Below are positions 6,154-11,297 of a stretch of 64,000 bases of DNA, piece by piece. The notes under the pieces were generated by a model. It worked only from the letters and a program-made list of their open reading frames with translations. It made no database searches and was not told the DNA's origin. The position numbers and the translations under genes are program-made. The DNA comes from Kitasatospora acidiphila (GTDB lineage: Bacteria > Actinomycetota > Actinomycetes > Streptomycetales > Streptomycetaceae), in contig NZ_VIGB01000003.1 of assembly GCF_006636205.1 (NCBI RefSeq), forward strand, positions 1,550,001 to 1,614,000. The letters run 5' to 3'. Each line of letters opens with the position of its first letter. Position 1 is the first letter of the stretch.

Positions 6154-7368
6154 ATGACCGAGACCGACCAGCTCACGCTGATCCGGAGCAGCTTCGCCCT
6201 GTTCCGGGACCACGGCGACAAACTCGCCGCCCACTTCTACGCCACCCTGTTCCTGCACAACCCCCAGCTGCGGGAGCTGTTTCCGGCCGCCATGGACGTG
6301 CAGCGCGACCGGCTCTTCCAGGCCCTGGCCGGCGCCGTCCGGATGCTCGACCGGCCCGCCGAACTGACGGTCTTCTTACAGCAGTTGGGGCGCGACCACC
6401 GCAAGTACGGGGTGCGCAGCGAGCATTACGCGGCGGTCGGCCAGGCACTGCTGGCCACCCTGGCCAGGTTCGCCGGCCCGCAGTGGTCCCCGGCCCATGA
6501 GCGGGCCTGGACGATCGCCTACCACCAGATCGCCGCCACCATGAGCGGTGCCGCCGAGACCGAGGCCGACCGCACCCCGCCGTTCTGGCACGCCGAGGTG
6601 GTCGGCCATGAGCGGCGCGGATCCGACCTGGCGGTGCTCACCCTGCGGCCGCACGCCCCGTTCCCCTACCGGGCCGGCCAGTACACCACCGTGGAGACGC
6701 CGCGCTGGCCGCGGGTCTGGCGGCCCTACTCGATCGCCAACGCCCCTCGTCAGGACGGCCTGTTGACCTTGCAAGTGCGGGCCGTACCGGCCGGTTGGGT
6801 GAGCAACGCCCTGGTCCAGCACACCCGGGTCGGCGATGTGCTGCGGCTTGGGCCGGGCCGCGGCACCCTGGTGCTGCCCGAGCGGCCGGCCCGCCGGGTG
6901 GTCTGCGTGGCCGGCGGCACCGGGCTGGCGCCGATCAAGGCGCTGGTGGAGGCGATGATCACGCACAACCGCCCGCTCACCCTGCACCTGTTCGTCGGCG
7001 CCCGCCACCAGCGCGACCTCTACGACCTGGACGCGCTGCGGCAGTTGGCCGCGGCCTTTCCCCGGCTGCTGCTGGTGCCGGTGGTGTCCGACGAGATCGG
7101 CTGGGCCGGGGTGCAGGGGCGGCTGCCCGAGGTGGTCCCGGCCCAGGGGAACTGGCAGGACCATGAGATCTTCGTGGCCGGGCCGGACGCCATGGTGATC
7201 AGCATGGTCGAGCGGCTCCATCGGGGCGGTGTGCCGGCCGACCGGCTGCACTATGAACTCTCCACCACCCCCGAGGTGTTGGACATCACCTCGGGGCTGC
7301 TGGAACACACCGAGCCGCCGAAGCCGGGCTCGGGCCGGCCTGCGACGGGTGACATCACCCCGCGTTGA
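6154..7368 (+). CDS. Flavohemoprotein-like globin/ferredoxin-NADP reductase fusion
   Basis: The 404-residue protein joins a globin domain (1-135; candidate proximal histidine H82 in GRDHRKYGV) to a reductase module: FAD-binding domain with WRPYSIANAP near 190 and NAD(P)-binding domain with AGGTGLAPIKAL near 253. Flavohemoglobins convert nitric oxide to nitrate with O2 and NAD(P)H. The FAD motif RPYS and the order of domains fit this family, although the globin part is diverged and the usual distal residues are unclear. The ATG lacks an obvious ribosome site. Its last 14 bases overlap the 3' end of the opposing EphD-like gene. Confidence 0.85.
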   Translation: MTETDQLTLIRSSFALFRDHGDKLAAHFYATLFLHNPQLRELFPAAMDVQRDRLFQALAGAVRMLDRPAELTVFLQQLGRDHRKYGVRSEHYAAVGQALLATLARFAGPQWSPAHERAWTIAYHQIAATMSGAAETEADRTPPFWHAEVVGHERRGSDLAVLTLRPHAPFPYRAGQYTTVETPRWPRVWRPYSIANAPRQDGLLTLQVRAVPAGWVSNALVQHTRVGDVLRLGPGRGTLVLPERPARRVVCVAGGTGLAPIKALVEAMITHNRPLTLHLFVGARHQRDLYDLDALRQLAAAFPRLLLVPVVSDEIGWAGVQGRLPEVVPAQGNWQDHEIFVAGPDAMVISMVERLHRGGVPADRLHYELSTTPEVLDITSGLLEHTEPPKPGSGRPATGDITPR

Positions 7369-9100
7369 GCTTGGCCAACTGCCGCAGCAGCCCCGGCCAG
7401 AGCCGCCCGACCAGCCGCGCCGCCTTGGCCTCCGCGGTGACCGGCACCACCGGCTTGCCGGTGCGCACCGCCTTGACGATCTCCGTCGCCACCTTCTCCG
7501 GCGGGAAGCCGCGCCGGGCGTAGAGCTTGCTGACCCGGGCCTGCTTGGCGGCCTGCTGCTCTGCGGTCAGCCCGGAGAACGTGGAGGTGCGGGTGATGTT
7601 GGTGTTGACGATGCCGGGGCAGATCGCGCTCACCCCGATGCCACTGGTGGCGAGTTCGGCGCGCAGGCAGTCGGAGAGCATCAGCACCGCGGCCTTGCTG
7701 GTGGCGTAGGCGGCCAGCACCTTGGACGGCAGATACGCGGCCGCCGAGGCCAGGTTGACGATGTGTCCGCCCTGGCCGCGCTCGGCCATCAGGCTGCCGA
7801 ACGCCCGGCAGCCGTGGATCACGCCCCACAGGTTGACGTCCAGGACCCGCTGCCACTCCTTCTCGGTGGTCTGCAGGAAGGTCCCGGAGTGCCCGATGCC
7901 GGCGTTGTTGACCAGCACGTCCGGCACACCGTGGGTGGCAGCGACGGTCTGTGCGAAGGCGTCCATACCGGGGCCGTCGCTGACGTCCACCTGGTAGGCG
8001 TGGCCCGCGCCGCCGAGCAGGTCGACCAACTCGGCGGTGCGCTGGGCGGCGGCCAGGTCCAGGTCGCAGACCACCACGGTGGCCTGCTGCTGCTCGGCGA
8101 AGGCCAGCGCGGTGGCGCGTCCGATCCCGCTGCCGGCCCCGGTGATCACCACCAGTGGCCCGGTGCTGCCCCCAGTGCTGCTTCCCACTCCCGAACTCCC
8201 GTTCTCGATCCGGCCGGTGAACTCACGCACCATCCCGGCCACCTTCGGCCCCTGCTCCAGCAGCGCCGACCAGTGGGTGGCGTTCAGCTGACGGCGCGTC
8301 AGATCCGGCACCCAGCGCTCCAGGCCCTCGGAGAGGAAGGTGTTGACGTAGTGATCGCGCTGCAGCGTGATCAGCTGCACCGGCACCTTGGTGGGCCGCT
8401 CGCGCGGCGAGCGCAGCGTGGGCCGCATGTTGGCCCGGTACAACTCGATGCCGCGCACGGCATCCTGACGGAGCGTCGGCTGCGGGTGGCCCGCCCGGGG
8501 GCTGACCTCCTCCAGGTCGCGCAGCACCCGCGGCCAGGCCCGGGCCAGCCCGAACCGCCAGGTGGCGGGTGCCAGGAGCGGCAGGTGGAAGGCGGTGATG
8601 TACCAGGAGTGCGCGCCCTGGACCAGCAGTTGGCGCAGGTGCCGGGGGGTCGGGCGGCGCATCCGGTGCCGGATCCAGTGGCCCATGTGGTCCAGGCAAG
8701 GCCCGGAGATGCTGGTGTAGGAGGCGAGTCGGCGCTCCGCACCGGGCTCGGTGACGGCCTCCCAGGACTGCAGCGAGCCCCAGTCGTGGGCGACCACGTG
8801 CACCGGCCGGTCGGGGCTGACCGCGTCGGCCACCGCGAACAGGTCGGCGGCCAGCAGCGCGAGGCGGTAGCCCTCACGGCTGTCCGGGATCCCCGACTCG
8901 CCGGCGCCGCGCACGTCGTAGCGCACCACGTGGTGGTCGGCGGCGAGGTCGGCGGCCACGTCGTCCCACACCACATGGGTGTCCGGGTAGCCGTGCACCA
9001 GCAGCACGGTGGGGCCTTGCGGATCGCCCTGCTCGAAGACGGCGAGGTCGATGCCGGCCGAGTGCACGAAGCTGCGGCGGGGTTCGGTCCGGTCGGTCAT
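7355..9100 (-). CDS. EphD-like fusion: alpha/beta hydrolase plus short-chain dehydrogenase
   Basis: The 581-residue protein has two catalytic halves. Residues 1-295 form an alpha/beta hydrolase of the epoxide hydrolase type: HGYPD (36-40) for the oxyanion hole and the nucleophile D106 in VAHDWGS. Residues 315-581 form a classical SDR: GAGSGIG (321-327) for NAD(P), NNAG (398-401) and the catalytic YATSK (Y465, K469). The layout matches actinobacterial EphD, linked in mycobacteria to epoxide and lipid metabolism. ATG 9100 overlaps the stop of a repeat-encoded mini-ORF (ATGA) and has GGAGG 7 bases upstream. It is the last gene of the minus-strand operon starting at 12206. Confidence 0.9.
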   Translation of the reverse strand: MTDRTEPRRSFVHSAGIDLAVFEQGDPQGPTVLLVHGYPDTHVVWDDVAADLAADHHVVRYDVRGAGESGIPDSREGYRLALLAADLFAVADAVSPDRPVHVVAHDWGSLQSWEAVTEPGAERRLASYTSISGPCLDHMGHWIRHRMRRPTPRHLRQLLVQGAHSWYITAFHLPLLAPATWRFGLARAWPRVLRDLEEVSPRAGHPQPTLRQDAVRGIELYRANMRPTLRSPRERPTKVPVQLITLQRDHYVNTFLSEGLERWVPDLTRRQLNATHWSALLEQGPKVAGMVREFTGRIENGSSGVGSSTGGSTGPLVVITGAGSGIGRATALAFAEQQQATVVVCDLDLAAAQRTAELVDLLGGAGHAYQVDVSDGPGMDAFAQTVAATHGVPDVLVNNAGIGHSGTFLQTTEKEWQRVLDVNLWGVIHGCRAFGSLMAERGQGGHIVNLASAAAYLPSKVLAAYATSKAAVLMLSDCLRAELATSGIGVSAICPGIVNTNITRTSTFSGLTAEQQAAKQARVSKLYARRGFPPEKVATEIVKAVRTGKPVVPVTAEAKAARLVGRLWPGLLRQLAKLNAG

Positions 9101-9236
9101 CGGGCGGCCTCCGCCTGCTCGGTACGGTCGGTCATCGGGCGGCCTCCGCCTGCTCGGTACGGTCGGTCATCGGGCGGCCTCCGCCTGCTCGGTAGGGTCG
9201 GTCATCGGGCGGCCTCCGCCTGTTCGGTACGGTCGG
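9091..9236 (-). repeat. 35-bp tandem repeats (four copies) across a gene junction
   Basis: Units start at 9091, 9126, 9161 and 9196, followed by six bases of a fifth. Copies differ at only a few positions (for example 9195 and 9223). Read on the minus strand, each unit contains GGAGG, then CCGCCCG, then ATGA, that is, a ribosome site, a start codon and an overlapping stop codon. The array sits exactly between the M24 peptidase-like gene and the EphD-like gene, and both gene ends share the repeat sequence. Confidence 0.95.
9097..9205 (-). other. Chain of three coupled 12-residue mini-ORFs
   Basis: Three successive minus-strand reading frames (9205-9167, 9170-9132, 9135-9097) code MTDPTEQAEAAR once and MTDRTEQAEAAR twice. 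Each starts inside the stop of the one before (ATGA), and the last hands over to the EphD-like start at 9100. The peptides equal the C-terminal tail of the M24 protein plus the first residues of the EphD-like protein, so they arose by duplication of the junction. Ribosome coupling through the chain is inferred. Confidence 0.6.
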
Positions 9237-10071
9237 ACCCGCCGCGGGCGGGCTCGGCCCAGCGCCGCACGTGCGGCAGGTCGTCGTCCAGCCAGTAGGC
9301 ATCATCCTCGGTGACCACCAGCAGCTCCTCGAACTTGATGCCGGTGTCGCGGAAGCCGATGTGCGGTTCGACCGCCCACAGGCCGGGCGTCGGCGCGTGC
9401 CGGGAGGAGCGGCCGTCGGCCCAGAGCGGTGAACGGCCGTGCAGCCGTTCGGCGATGAGCTCGCGGCCCAGGGTCTGCAGGGTGCGCAGGCCGAAGCCGA
9501 AGAGGTTCACGCCGGCGGGGGCCCGGCTGGTGTTGCGGGTCACCTGGTGGCCGATCACCCGCCCAGGGTAGACCTGGTGGCGGTTGTCGTAGCCGTGCGC
9601 GGCGATCTGCGCGTCGACGGCGGCGTAGATCTCGTTCAGCGGCTTGCGGGCCCTGACCTCGCGCAGGATCAACTCCCGGTAGATCTGGAGGTCCTGGGCG
9701 AGCCGGTCCCAGATCCGGTTCTCGCCGACCTTGCCGCCGTAGCCGATGTCGGCGGTGTAGCCGTCCACCACCGGTGCGCAGTCCAGCACGTAGGGCATGC
9801 CCTCCTGCAGCACCCGCCCGCCGGCGAAGAACTGCAGCGGGGTGTGGAAGTGCCGGAACGCGGTGCGGTCACCGAACCAGGCGAACGGCACGTGGAAGAA
9901 GTCGGTCACCCCAGCGGCCACCAGATGTCGGCGCAGCCGGTCGGTGGCCTGCCGCTCGGTGACCCCGGGCTCGATCCAGGCGGCGGTCTTCTCCGCGCAG
10001 TCGTAAGCGAGTTGCTGGATCTCGCGGAACTTCGCCAGGTCGGCGTCGGAGTAGGTGAAGGTGGATGCCAT
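9202..10071 (-). CDS. M24-family metallopeptidase-like protein (Xaa-Pro peptidase fold)
   Basis: The 289-residue protein has a pita-bread fold signature with metal ligands in the expected order: two Asp in VLDCAPVVDGYTADIGY (near 96-108), His in VIGHQVTRN (near 177), Glu in VEPHIGF (near 237) and Glu in KFEELLVV (near 249). Family members cleave N-terminal residues, often before proline, or act as hydrolases on other amides. The ATG lies 3 bases after the reductase stop, so the genes are co-transcribed. Its last codons belong to the 35-bp repeat array and the stop overlaps the next start. Confidence 0.85.
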   Translation of the reverse strand: MASTFTYSDADLAKFREIQQLAYDCAEKTAAWIEPGVTERQATDRLRRHLVAAGVTDFFHVPFAWFGDRTAFRHFHTPLQFFAGGRVLQEGMPYVLDCAPVVDGYTADIGYGGKVGENRIWDRLAQDLQIYRELILREVRARKPLNEIYAAVDAQIAAHGYDNRHQVYPGRVIGHQVTRNTSRAPAGVNLFGFGLRTLQTLGRELIAERLHGRSPLWADGRSSRHAPTPGLWAVEPHIGFRDTGIKFEELLVVTEDDAYWLDDDLPHVRRWAEPARGGSDRTEQAEAAR

Positions 10072-10074
10072 CGG

Positions 10075-11297
10075 TCAGACCTCCAGGACCAGGGTCTCGC
10101 CCTCGGCCGCCCGGGACACGCAGGGCAGCAGGGCTCCGGCTGCGCGCTCCTCGGCGGTGAGCCGGCGATCGCGGTGTTCGGGGGTGCCGGCCAGCACCCG
10201 GACCTGGCAGGTGCCGCAGAACCCCTGGTGGCAGGAGTACGGCGTGCCGGGCCGGGCCTCGCGCAGCACGTCGAGCGCGGACTTGTCGGCGGGGACGGCC
10301 AGTTCCTCTCCGCTGCCGGAGAGCTTGAGGGTGAACGGCCGGCCGTCGCGCACCGGCGCGGCGCCGAACCGCTCGAAGTGCAGCGCGGTGGCGGGCGAGG
10401 CGTCGAAGGCCTGTTGGACAGCGGCCAGCATGGGGGTCGGGCCGCAGCAGTAGACGGCGGCGCCCCGGCCGGCCCGGGCCAGCAGTTGCTCGCCGGTGGG
10501 TGTGCCGCCGACCAGCAGGGTGACCCTCCCGGGGCCAGCGCCGTCAGCTCCTCGGCGAACGGCATGGTCTCGGCGCTGCGCCCGGCGTAGACCAACTGCC
10601 AGTCGAGATCCTGGTGTTGGGCTTCATGGGCGATCGGCAGCAGCGGCGTGATGCCGATGCCGCCGGCGATCAGCAGCAGCTTGGGTTCGGCGCAGAAGAC
10701 GAAGCCGTTGCGGGGGCGCCGGACGGTGAGCCGGGCGCCGACGTGGAGTTCGTCGTGGATCTCCACCGAGCCGCCGCCACCGCCGGCGATCCGGCGCACC
10801 GCGATCCGGTAGCCGCCGCGGTCGGCGGGGTCGCCGCAGAGCGAGTAGTGGCGCACCCGGCCGGAGGGCAAGGTGAGTCGGAGGTGGGCGCCGGGCTGCC
10901 AGGGGGGCAGCGGGCTACCGGCCGGGTCGGCGAGGCGCAGCTCCACCACGTCGTCGGCGACCGGGCGGTGGGCGGTCACCACCAGGACCAGCGGGGCGCG
11001 GCCGCGGCTGGGCGGGCGGCGCGGGCTGCGGCGCAGCGGCGGGCTGGCCAGGGCGGGGGTGTAGAGGTCGCTGAACCGGGTGAGCAGGCTGAAGAAGCGG
11101 TCGGCCCGGGGGCGGCCGTAGAGGTCCGGCGGCGGGGTGTCCAGGTCGTGGCGGCTGGTGCGGCCGAAGGCCAGGGTGGGGGCGGGGTCGGTGGCCTGCG
11201 GGGGTCCGGCGGGGGCGAATTCCGCGTCCCCTGCGCGTTCGGCGGCAGCTCTCGCGGCGGCGGGCTCGGTGGCCGGGTCGGCGGCCGGTGGGGTCAT
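10075..11297 (-). CDS. Ferredoxin-NAD(P) reductase with C-terminal [2Fe-2S] domain; frameshifted in this sequence
   Basis: The product would be an FAD- or FMN-dependent oxidoreductase of the phthalate dioxygenase reductase type, passing electrons from NAD(P)H to an oxygenase. The first frame (11297 to about 10530) holds a 95-residue extension, the flavin domain (VRHYSLCGD) and the NAD domain (AGGIGITPLLPI). The second frame (about 10530 to 10075) continues with YCCGPTPML and a plant-type ferredoxin, CHQGFCGTCQ, with a fourth Cys in LLPCVS. One extra C in the run at 10528-10530 rejoins the frames, so this may be a sequence error. It lies in the operon between the metal-dependent hydrolase and the M24 gene. 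Confidence 0.85.

Follow-up and report, generated by a model that had tools for sequence, protein, structure and literature searches.

Mycobacterial interspersed repetitive units (MIRUs) are short units that lie at gene starts and carry an open reading frame coupled by a 4-nt overlap (PMC12548453); they are apparently mobile and occur in many mycobacteria, according to the same source. At senX3-regX3 the repeats are 77 bp long and stand in tandem; BCG Pasteur has two of them, BCG Danish three (PMC9392950). Translational coupling between neighbouring genes needs overlaps or very short gaps: it nearly vanished over a gap of ~20 nt in three E. coli and three Haloferax gene pairs, and the last 15 nt of the upstream gene were enough for restart in two E. 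coli pairs (PMC10666635). One E. coli pair was ~60% coupled, with nearly 40% fresh initiation (PMC6728339). Termination-reinitiation at ATGA combines a 4-nt overlap with an internal Shine-Dalgarno motif, usually at one junction between two real genes. Bicistronic designs, which are synthetic and single, place a short leader cistron first, from which ribosomes pass to the following start (PMC5995908). The TAACTGA direct repeats of Beggiatoaceae lie just upstream of gene starts, some overlapping the upstream stop (PMC4679880). There are also VNTR loci, with tandem repeats at gene starts, that alter expression. No report of a tandem duplication of coupled junctions was found in the literature searched, which was mostly literature outside subscription, nor in the available parts of PMC3711429 and PMC4679880.

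The locus described here lies in a 64,000-nt stretch of Kitasatospora acidiphila DNA (the window) from a genome of 8.58 Mb in 3 contigs. At the boundary of two operon genes, a complete stop/start junction stands four times in series, with the following features:

9202..10071, minus strand: upstream gene, M24-family metallopeptidase, 289 aa (PF00557, E 8.2e-21)
7355..9100, minus strand: downstream gene, EphD-like alpha/beta-hydrolase plus short-chain dehydrogenase, 581 aa (PF00561, PF00106)
9084..9236, minus strand: tandem array across the gene junction, period 35, 4.4 copies (Tandem Repeats Finder)
9206..9240, minus strand: M24-tail copy of the unit, 31/35 (by comparison with full unit 3)
9171..9205, minus strand: full unit 1, with one substitution (R to P in mini-ORF 1)
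9136..9170, minus strand: full unit 2
9101..9135, minus strand: full unit 3
9213..9217, minus strand: GGAGG Shine-Dalgarno motif for mini-ORF 1, 7 nt before the ATG
9167..9205, minus strand: mini-ORF 1, MTDPTEQAEAAR, with a 4-nt overlap with the M24 stop
9178..9182, minus strand: GGAGG for mini-ORF 2
9132..9170, minus strand: mini-ORF 2, MTDRTEQAEAAR
9143..9147, minus strand: GGAGG for mini-ORF 3
9097..9135, minus strand: mini-ORF 3, MTDRTEQAEAAR, its stop overlapping the EphD start by 4 nt
9108..9112, minus strand: GGAGG for EphD
9222..9236, minus strand: direct repeat, tail arm, CCGACCGTACCGAAC, likely slippage site
9082..9096, minus strand: direct repeat, head arm, CCGACCGGACCGAAC, 14/15 match to the tail arm

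The array (96% matches) has the highest score, 285, among the 42 Tandem Repeats Finder rows of the window; other tandem repeats there, at 47770-47934 and 51249-51337, consist of short GC-rich units and of a 17-bp unit in 5.2 copies. The M24 stop is the TGA of the first ATGA of the array. On the minus strand there are ATGs at 9205, 9170, 9135 and 9100. Three of them, in that order, open frames of exactly 12 codons, each closed by the TGA of the next ATGA, and the fourth starts the 581-aa EphD-like frame; all four sites have GGAGG and a 7-nt spacer ahead of the ATGA. The array thus puts 105 nt between M24 and EphD, each unit restoring the 4-nt overlap with a GGAGG of its own. These frames and overlaps bear out what the initial annotation had described, namely a tandem duplication of a complete junction at a two-gene boundary (four 35-bp units, each with GGAGG and an ATGA) and three 12-residue mini-ORFs, each overlapping the next start. 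The name EphD is also carried over from there. The EphD-like protein matches NF004514 (‘SDR family oxidoreductase’) with 825.5 bits against a cut-off of 455, and the best named matches to the M24 protein (among the best 80 of 191) come from Kitasatospora and Streptomyces-labelled strains.

Like a MIRU, the array is a short unit at a gene start, in tandem copies with a 4-nt coupled reading frame and a period of 2 mod 3 (77 bp at senX3-regX3, 35 here); unlike the apparently mobile MIRUs, it is a local junction duplication at one genome site. The common coupling architecture (PMC12548453) and period phase would suit the insertion, at the start codon, of a MIRU-like element that is mobile or dispersed, but the unit is built from the two genes' own tail and head and, where MIRUs form a dispersed family, the four genome matches with up to 3 mismatches all lie within this array. 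We therefore regard insertion, a reading already disfavoured, as very improbable, and the best reading, to judge by published descriptions of MIRUs, is that the array would work like a MIRU but is not one. Compared with ordinary termination-reinitiation, the same overlap and internal Shine-Dalgarno motif occur four times, in series via 12-codon frames; compared with bicistronic designs, the array is natural, serial and within an operon. The Beggiatoaceae repeat, in contrast, is a dispersed heptamer without Shine-Dalgarno character, and no coupled mini-ORFs are described in the available part of that account (PMC4679880). The array shares with expression-altering VNTRs its position at a gene start and a copy number changeable in principle; it is known, however, from one genome's sequence.

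A likely origin can be read from the edges of the array. Once the three full units are removed, CCGACCG-T/G-ACCGAAC (14/15) is present in both the M24 tail and the EphD head, exactly 35 bp apart, and slippage would explain the origin, since a tail/head direct repeat at that distance would yield exactly this unit. Replication slippage or unequal exchange between the repeat arms would copy a stretch holding Shine-Dalgarno motif, start and stop, and the array would now have three extra units. Relative to full unit 3, matching sites number 35 of 35 in unit 2, 34 in unit 1 (a single private change) and 31 in the M24-tail copy, where three of the four differences sit at the outer edge. There was probably more than one duplication step, with some time elapsed since, and the private substitution of unit 1 together with the divergence of the M24-tail copy inside the repeat indicates that the array has lasted some time and is not brand new. 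The same genome has 100 tandem repeats of period 17-60 in the 900 kb sampled (175 in 1.56 Mb over all genomes sampled). One of 34 bp and 4.4 copies lies ~18 kb from the array (L262 1143-1289; contig C3, 1541143-1541289), which suggests that such repeats are common in this genome.

An assembly or sequencing artefact was also considered. Upstream of M24 lies an FAD/ferredoxin reductase gene (10075-11297, minus strand) which, relative to its counterpart in the congener G065, is split at ~10520-10540, where one nucleotide of a G-rich run is apparently missing. Either the gene is a pseudogene or the sequence is wrong there, and errors at single bases are accordingly possible. The repeat copies, however, differ at specific sites over an array of ~153 bp, and the contig measures 8.3 Mb, suggesting long reads, so that we consider an artefact highly unlikely.

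We consider it likely, on balance, that the array is a tandem duplication that arose by slippage and copied a complete stop/start junction; each unit would restore coupling, and the duplication would be near-neutral. A ribosome ending M24 would restart at the overlapping ATG, make 12 residues and stop in the next ATGA, and this stop and restart would recur along the array until EphD is reached, with four hand-ons possible. Such a chain could bridge 105 nt, a distance over which one would expect coupling to fail without it, both proteins being left unchanged, and expansion would therefore be tolerated. This relay through mini-ORFs is plausible and consistent with the published coupling data. 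The chain closes because 35 is 2 mod 3: reasoning from the frame, with a period of 1 mod 3 a mini-ORF would not end in the next ATGA, and with a multiple of 3 the starts would share a frame and the EphD N-terminus would be lengthened. The reasoning of the initial annotation on coupling stands, but its condition that the period is not a multiple of 3 was too loose, as the period must be 2 mod 3; its statement that the chain is unbroken at any copy number agrees with the sequence, each unit's stop lying within the next ATGA. Gene finders are unlikely to report such mini-ORFs.

Relatives within the genus were compared by searching 70 Kitasatospora genomes, this one included, all of which match the region. 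Junctions were located from the last 60 conserved M24 residues and the first 80 EphD residues; G071, whose junction is divided between two contigs, was left out, giving 69 junctions. In all 68 other genomes a single start overlapping the M24 stop by 4 nt (ATG in 66, GTG in 2, i.e. ATGA or GTGA) leads straight into at least 100 codons of EphD, and only here does the overlapping start close after 12 codons. Because all 68 relatives have the single direct junction, the overlap is ancestral and rigorously conserved, and the array new. The lengths on either side vary across the genus (M24 tails 6-52 residues, EphD heads 5-56), and several M24 tails contain low-complexity repeats. A nearly full-length M24 gene was found in 36 of the 68; the other 32 lay outside that check, G065 among them with a remnant only. 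G065 is the best match to the region (84% DNA identity) and has one junction; immediately upstream of it stand ~4 copies of an in-frame repeat that is different and 30 bp long. Its M24 remnant, in which 35 query residues match, directly follows the reductase gene, and most of the M24 gene has apparently disappeared from this locus in G065; the C-terminal part left (L116, 1497-1730) still ends in the ATGA overlap with EphD. No plasmid relatives of the junction were found. The comparison also bears on whether the mini-peptides themselves are functional: three nearly identical 12-mers are encoded, but their sequence is simply the end of M24 fused to the beginning of EphD, and such mini-ORFs are absent from all 68 other junctions, making a function of the peptides extremely improbable.

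The initial annotation had further proposed that a changing repeat number could tune EphD. In such a reading copy number would be a mutable setting, and, with some ribosomes lost at every added restart, EphD would fall roughly as e^n, e being the efficiency of a single restart. The effects of serial restarts must multiply whenever a single step falls short of 100%, as in the E. coli pair with ~60% coupling (PMC6728339). By simple arithmetic, with restart probability e and no other initiation, EphD would be reduced by a factor of e cubed compared with a single junction, to 0.73 for e = 0.9 and to 0.22 for e = 0.6, but fresh initiation at each GGAGG could offset or cancel this loss. The energy predicted for opening the EphD start is 13.7 kcal/mol when extra units are absent; for 1, 2, 3, 4 and 6 units the values are 16.3, 17.6, 16.7, 16.0 and 15.7 kcal/mol, respectively, a prediction without a steady trend past the first extra unit. 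A special RNA structure was considered and rejected, as array (z = 0.68) and unit (z = 0.15) fold no better than shuffled sequence. Compared across related genomes, as had been suggested, repeat number is informative to the extent that the array occurs at one of 69 junctions and the other 68 have one junction each. Expression tuning by copy number is possible; the comparative evidence, including the sporadic relays in two other operons described below, does not favour it.

To place the array among other actinomycetes, pairs of GGAGG-N7-ATGA motifs 24-54 nt apart were sought, with the reversed pattern as control. With the 7-nt spacer, matches occurred in 35 of 394 Streptomycetaceae genomes against 1 reversed, and in a class-wide sample in 17 of 394 against 3; a 6-nt spacer gave 16 of 394 against 8. 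The three samples overlap and each includes this genome. The reversed pattern is a rough control only, because the single motif is itself commoner than its reverse (90 in this genome, 4 of them in the array, vs 9). In all, 71 rows were entered (59 + 12), omitting further units of the same arrays and two places of identical sequence in G053, and 63 hits remained after orthologues and one duplicate array had been collapsed from a list drawn up by eye; the periods of three arrays (23, 17 and 18) were set by hand, since the pattern had jumped two units. A hit was taken as an operon junction if an upstream frame ended in the first ATGA (or one period earlier) and a downstream frame began at the last ATG. 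By this test 38 of the 63 non-redundant hits, this array included, are serial junctions, and 25 fail. The array belongs to a recurrent class; the feature is real, its origin probably ordinary and its mechanism plausible.

Among the 38, the period is 2 mod 3, giving closed mini-ORF chains, in 30 (18 among the 25 clear tandem repeats, 12 among the 13 junctions whose units show little similarity), 0 in 5 and 1 in 3; an earlier version of the count gave 31/39. The low-similarity serial junctions may be old duplications or have another origin. As a phase control, short direct repeats able to seed duplication were sought at 124 single-copy junctions under a stricter strand test, and 2 mod 3 accounted for 33/69 repeats of at least 6 bp, 19/30 of at least 7, 6/11 of at least 8 and 4/8 of at least 9; recombining halves of different junctions gave 52-54%. 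Looser earlier controls, with a weakness in strand, had given 63-75% on 74 junctions and 43-59% (6-9 bp) on 153. Against expectations of 0.5 and 0.6, respectively, P was 2e-4 and 0.011 for all 30/38, 0.02 and 0.15 for the clear tandem repeats, and 0.002 and 0.013 for the group with little similarity, the two groups not differing significantly (Fisher p 0.23, on the 31/39 version). The control probably favours 2 mod 3 through the two genes' codon phases, which would line up at that spacing. Since slippage-prone repeats at single junctions already favour this phase (about half), the excess is modest, and not firm when the clear tandem repeats are taken by themselves, and most of it may be mutational; phase as proof of selection was accordingly rejected. 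The higher share in serial junctions (30/38 vs about 0.48-0.63 in the control), clearest in the 12/13 group, nevertheless leaves room for selection.

Two further repeats were noted outside this count. A 32-bp repeat of 3.2 copies in the same genome (L256 15326-15426; contig C3, about 1035326), between genes judged from their sequence to be of VWA type and an ATPase, repeats the first gene's end; it had been considered as a second relay array and was rejected, the genes lying on the other strand and the repeat holding gene ends. The 39 candidates from the same search were regarded as unreliable for that strand error and left unused. In G384 (L319 12835-12960), GGAAGGAGGGACGCCGATGA occurs twice, 104 nt apart (2 mod 3), as a candidate junction beyond the surveyed size range.

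Conservation of relays was followed at two other junctions. The first, which the sequence it encodes suggests to be an ABC-transporter junction, had matches in 41 of 121 genomes, and the 30 best loci (Streptomyces) were read: the overlap of start and upstream stop is kept in all 30, 25 have no relay, four have one (one of only two codons) and one has a larger GTG array. Inner mini-ORFs number one each in G347 and G209 and two in G221; in the GTG array (L333, G794) seven GTG sites lie 34-37 nt apart, six of them GTGA. The relays at the five loci, query included, differ in sequence and length, which at one orthologous junction suggests independent origins and repeated gain. For a sugar-isomerase junction (87 of 121 genomes matched, 30 best loci read), a complete relay is present in the query and one other, and G335 also has one; 28 loci are without, one of them with a four-codon overlap leading nowhere. 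Relay conservation was not seen in these two junction sets, and relays mostly come and go. Some retention may be indicated by two pairs of genomes, with a shared 10-codon relay in G187 and G171 and an 11-codon one in G219 and G321. In the former pair, a candidate retained relay, the mini-ORF lies between the same two genes (L172, L173) and its sequence has diverged with the overlaps kept.

These data speak on both sides of a copy-number setting for EphD. Orthologous ABC-transporter junctions with none, one or two inner mini-ORFs, or seven GTG sites in one species, speak for it, as do the 12 of 13 low-similarity serial junctions in the closing phase; but the array occurs at a single Kitasatospora junction, 25 of the 30 ABC-transporter loci lack a relay and the predicted opening energy shows no steady course after the first added unit. 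We consider such a setting unlikely. A wider proposal seems to us similarly unlikely: that MIRU-like relay cistrons of local origin arise again and again at the ATGA junctions of actinomycete operons, that arrays with a 2 mod 3 period, the only ones in which the chain stays closed, preferentially survive selection, and that they provide a heritable and reversible control over the proportion of two operon proteins, with the present array among the longest seen.

The slippage-born, probably near-neutral duplication that we favour has consequences of its own. The array has the look of an accidental copying event that, by chance, leaves the operon functional, and arrays of this kind show an operon junction gaining DNA with both proteins unchanged. 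Natural arrays of two to several overlapping junctions would be ready-made tests of serial ribosome stopping and restarting and of the loss per step, and junction duplication would be a simple local route to MIRU-like units.
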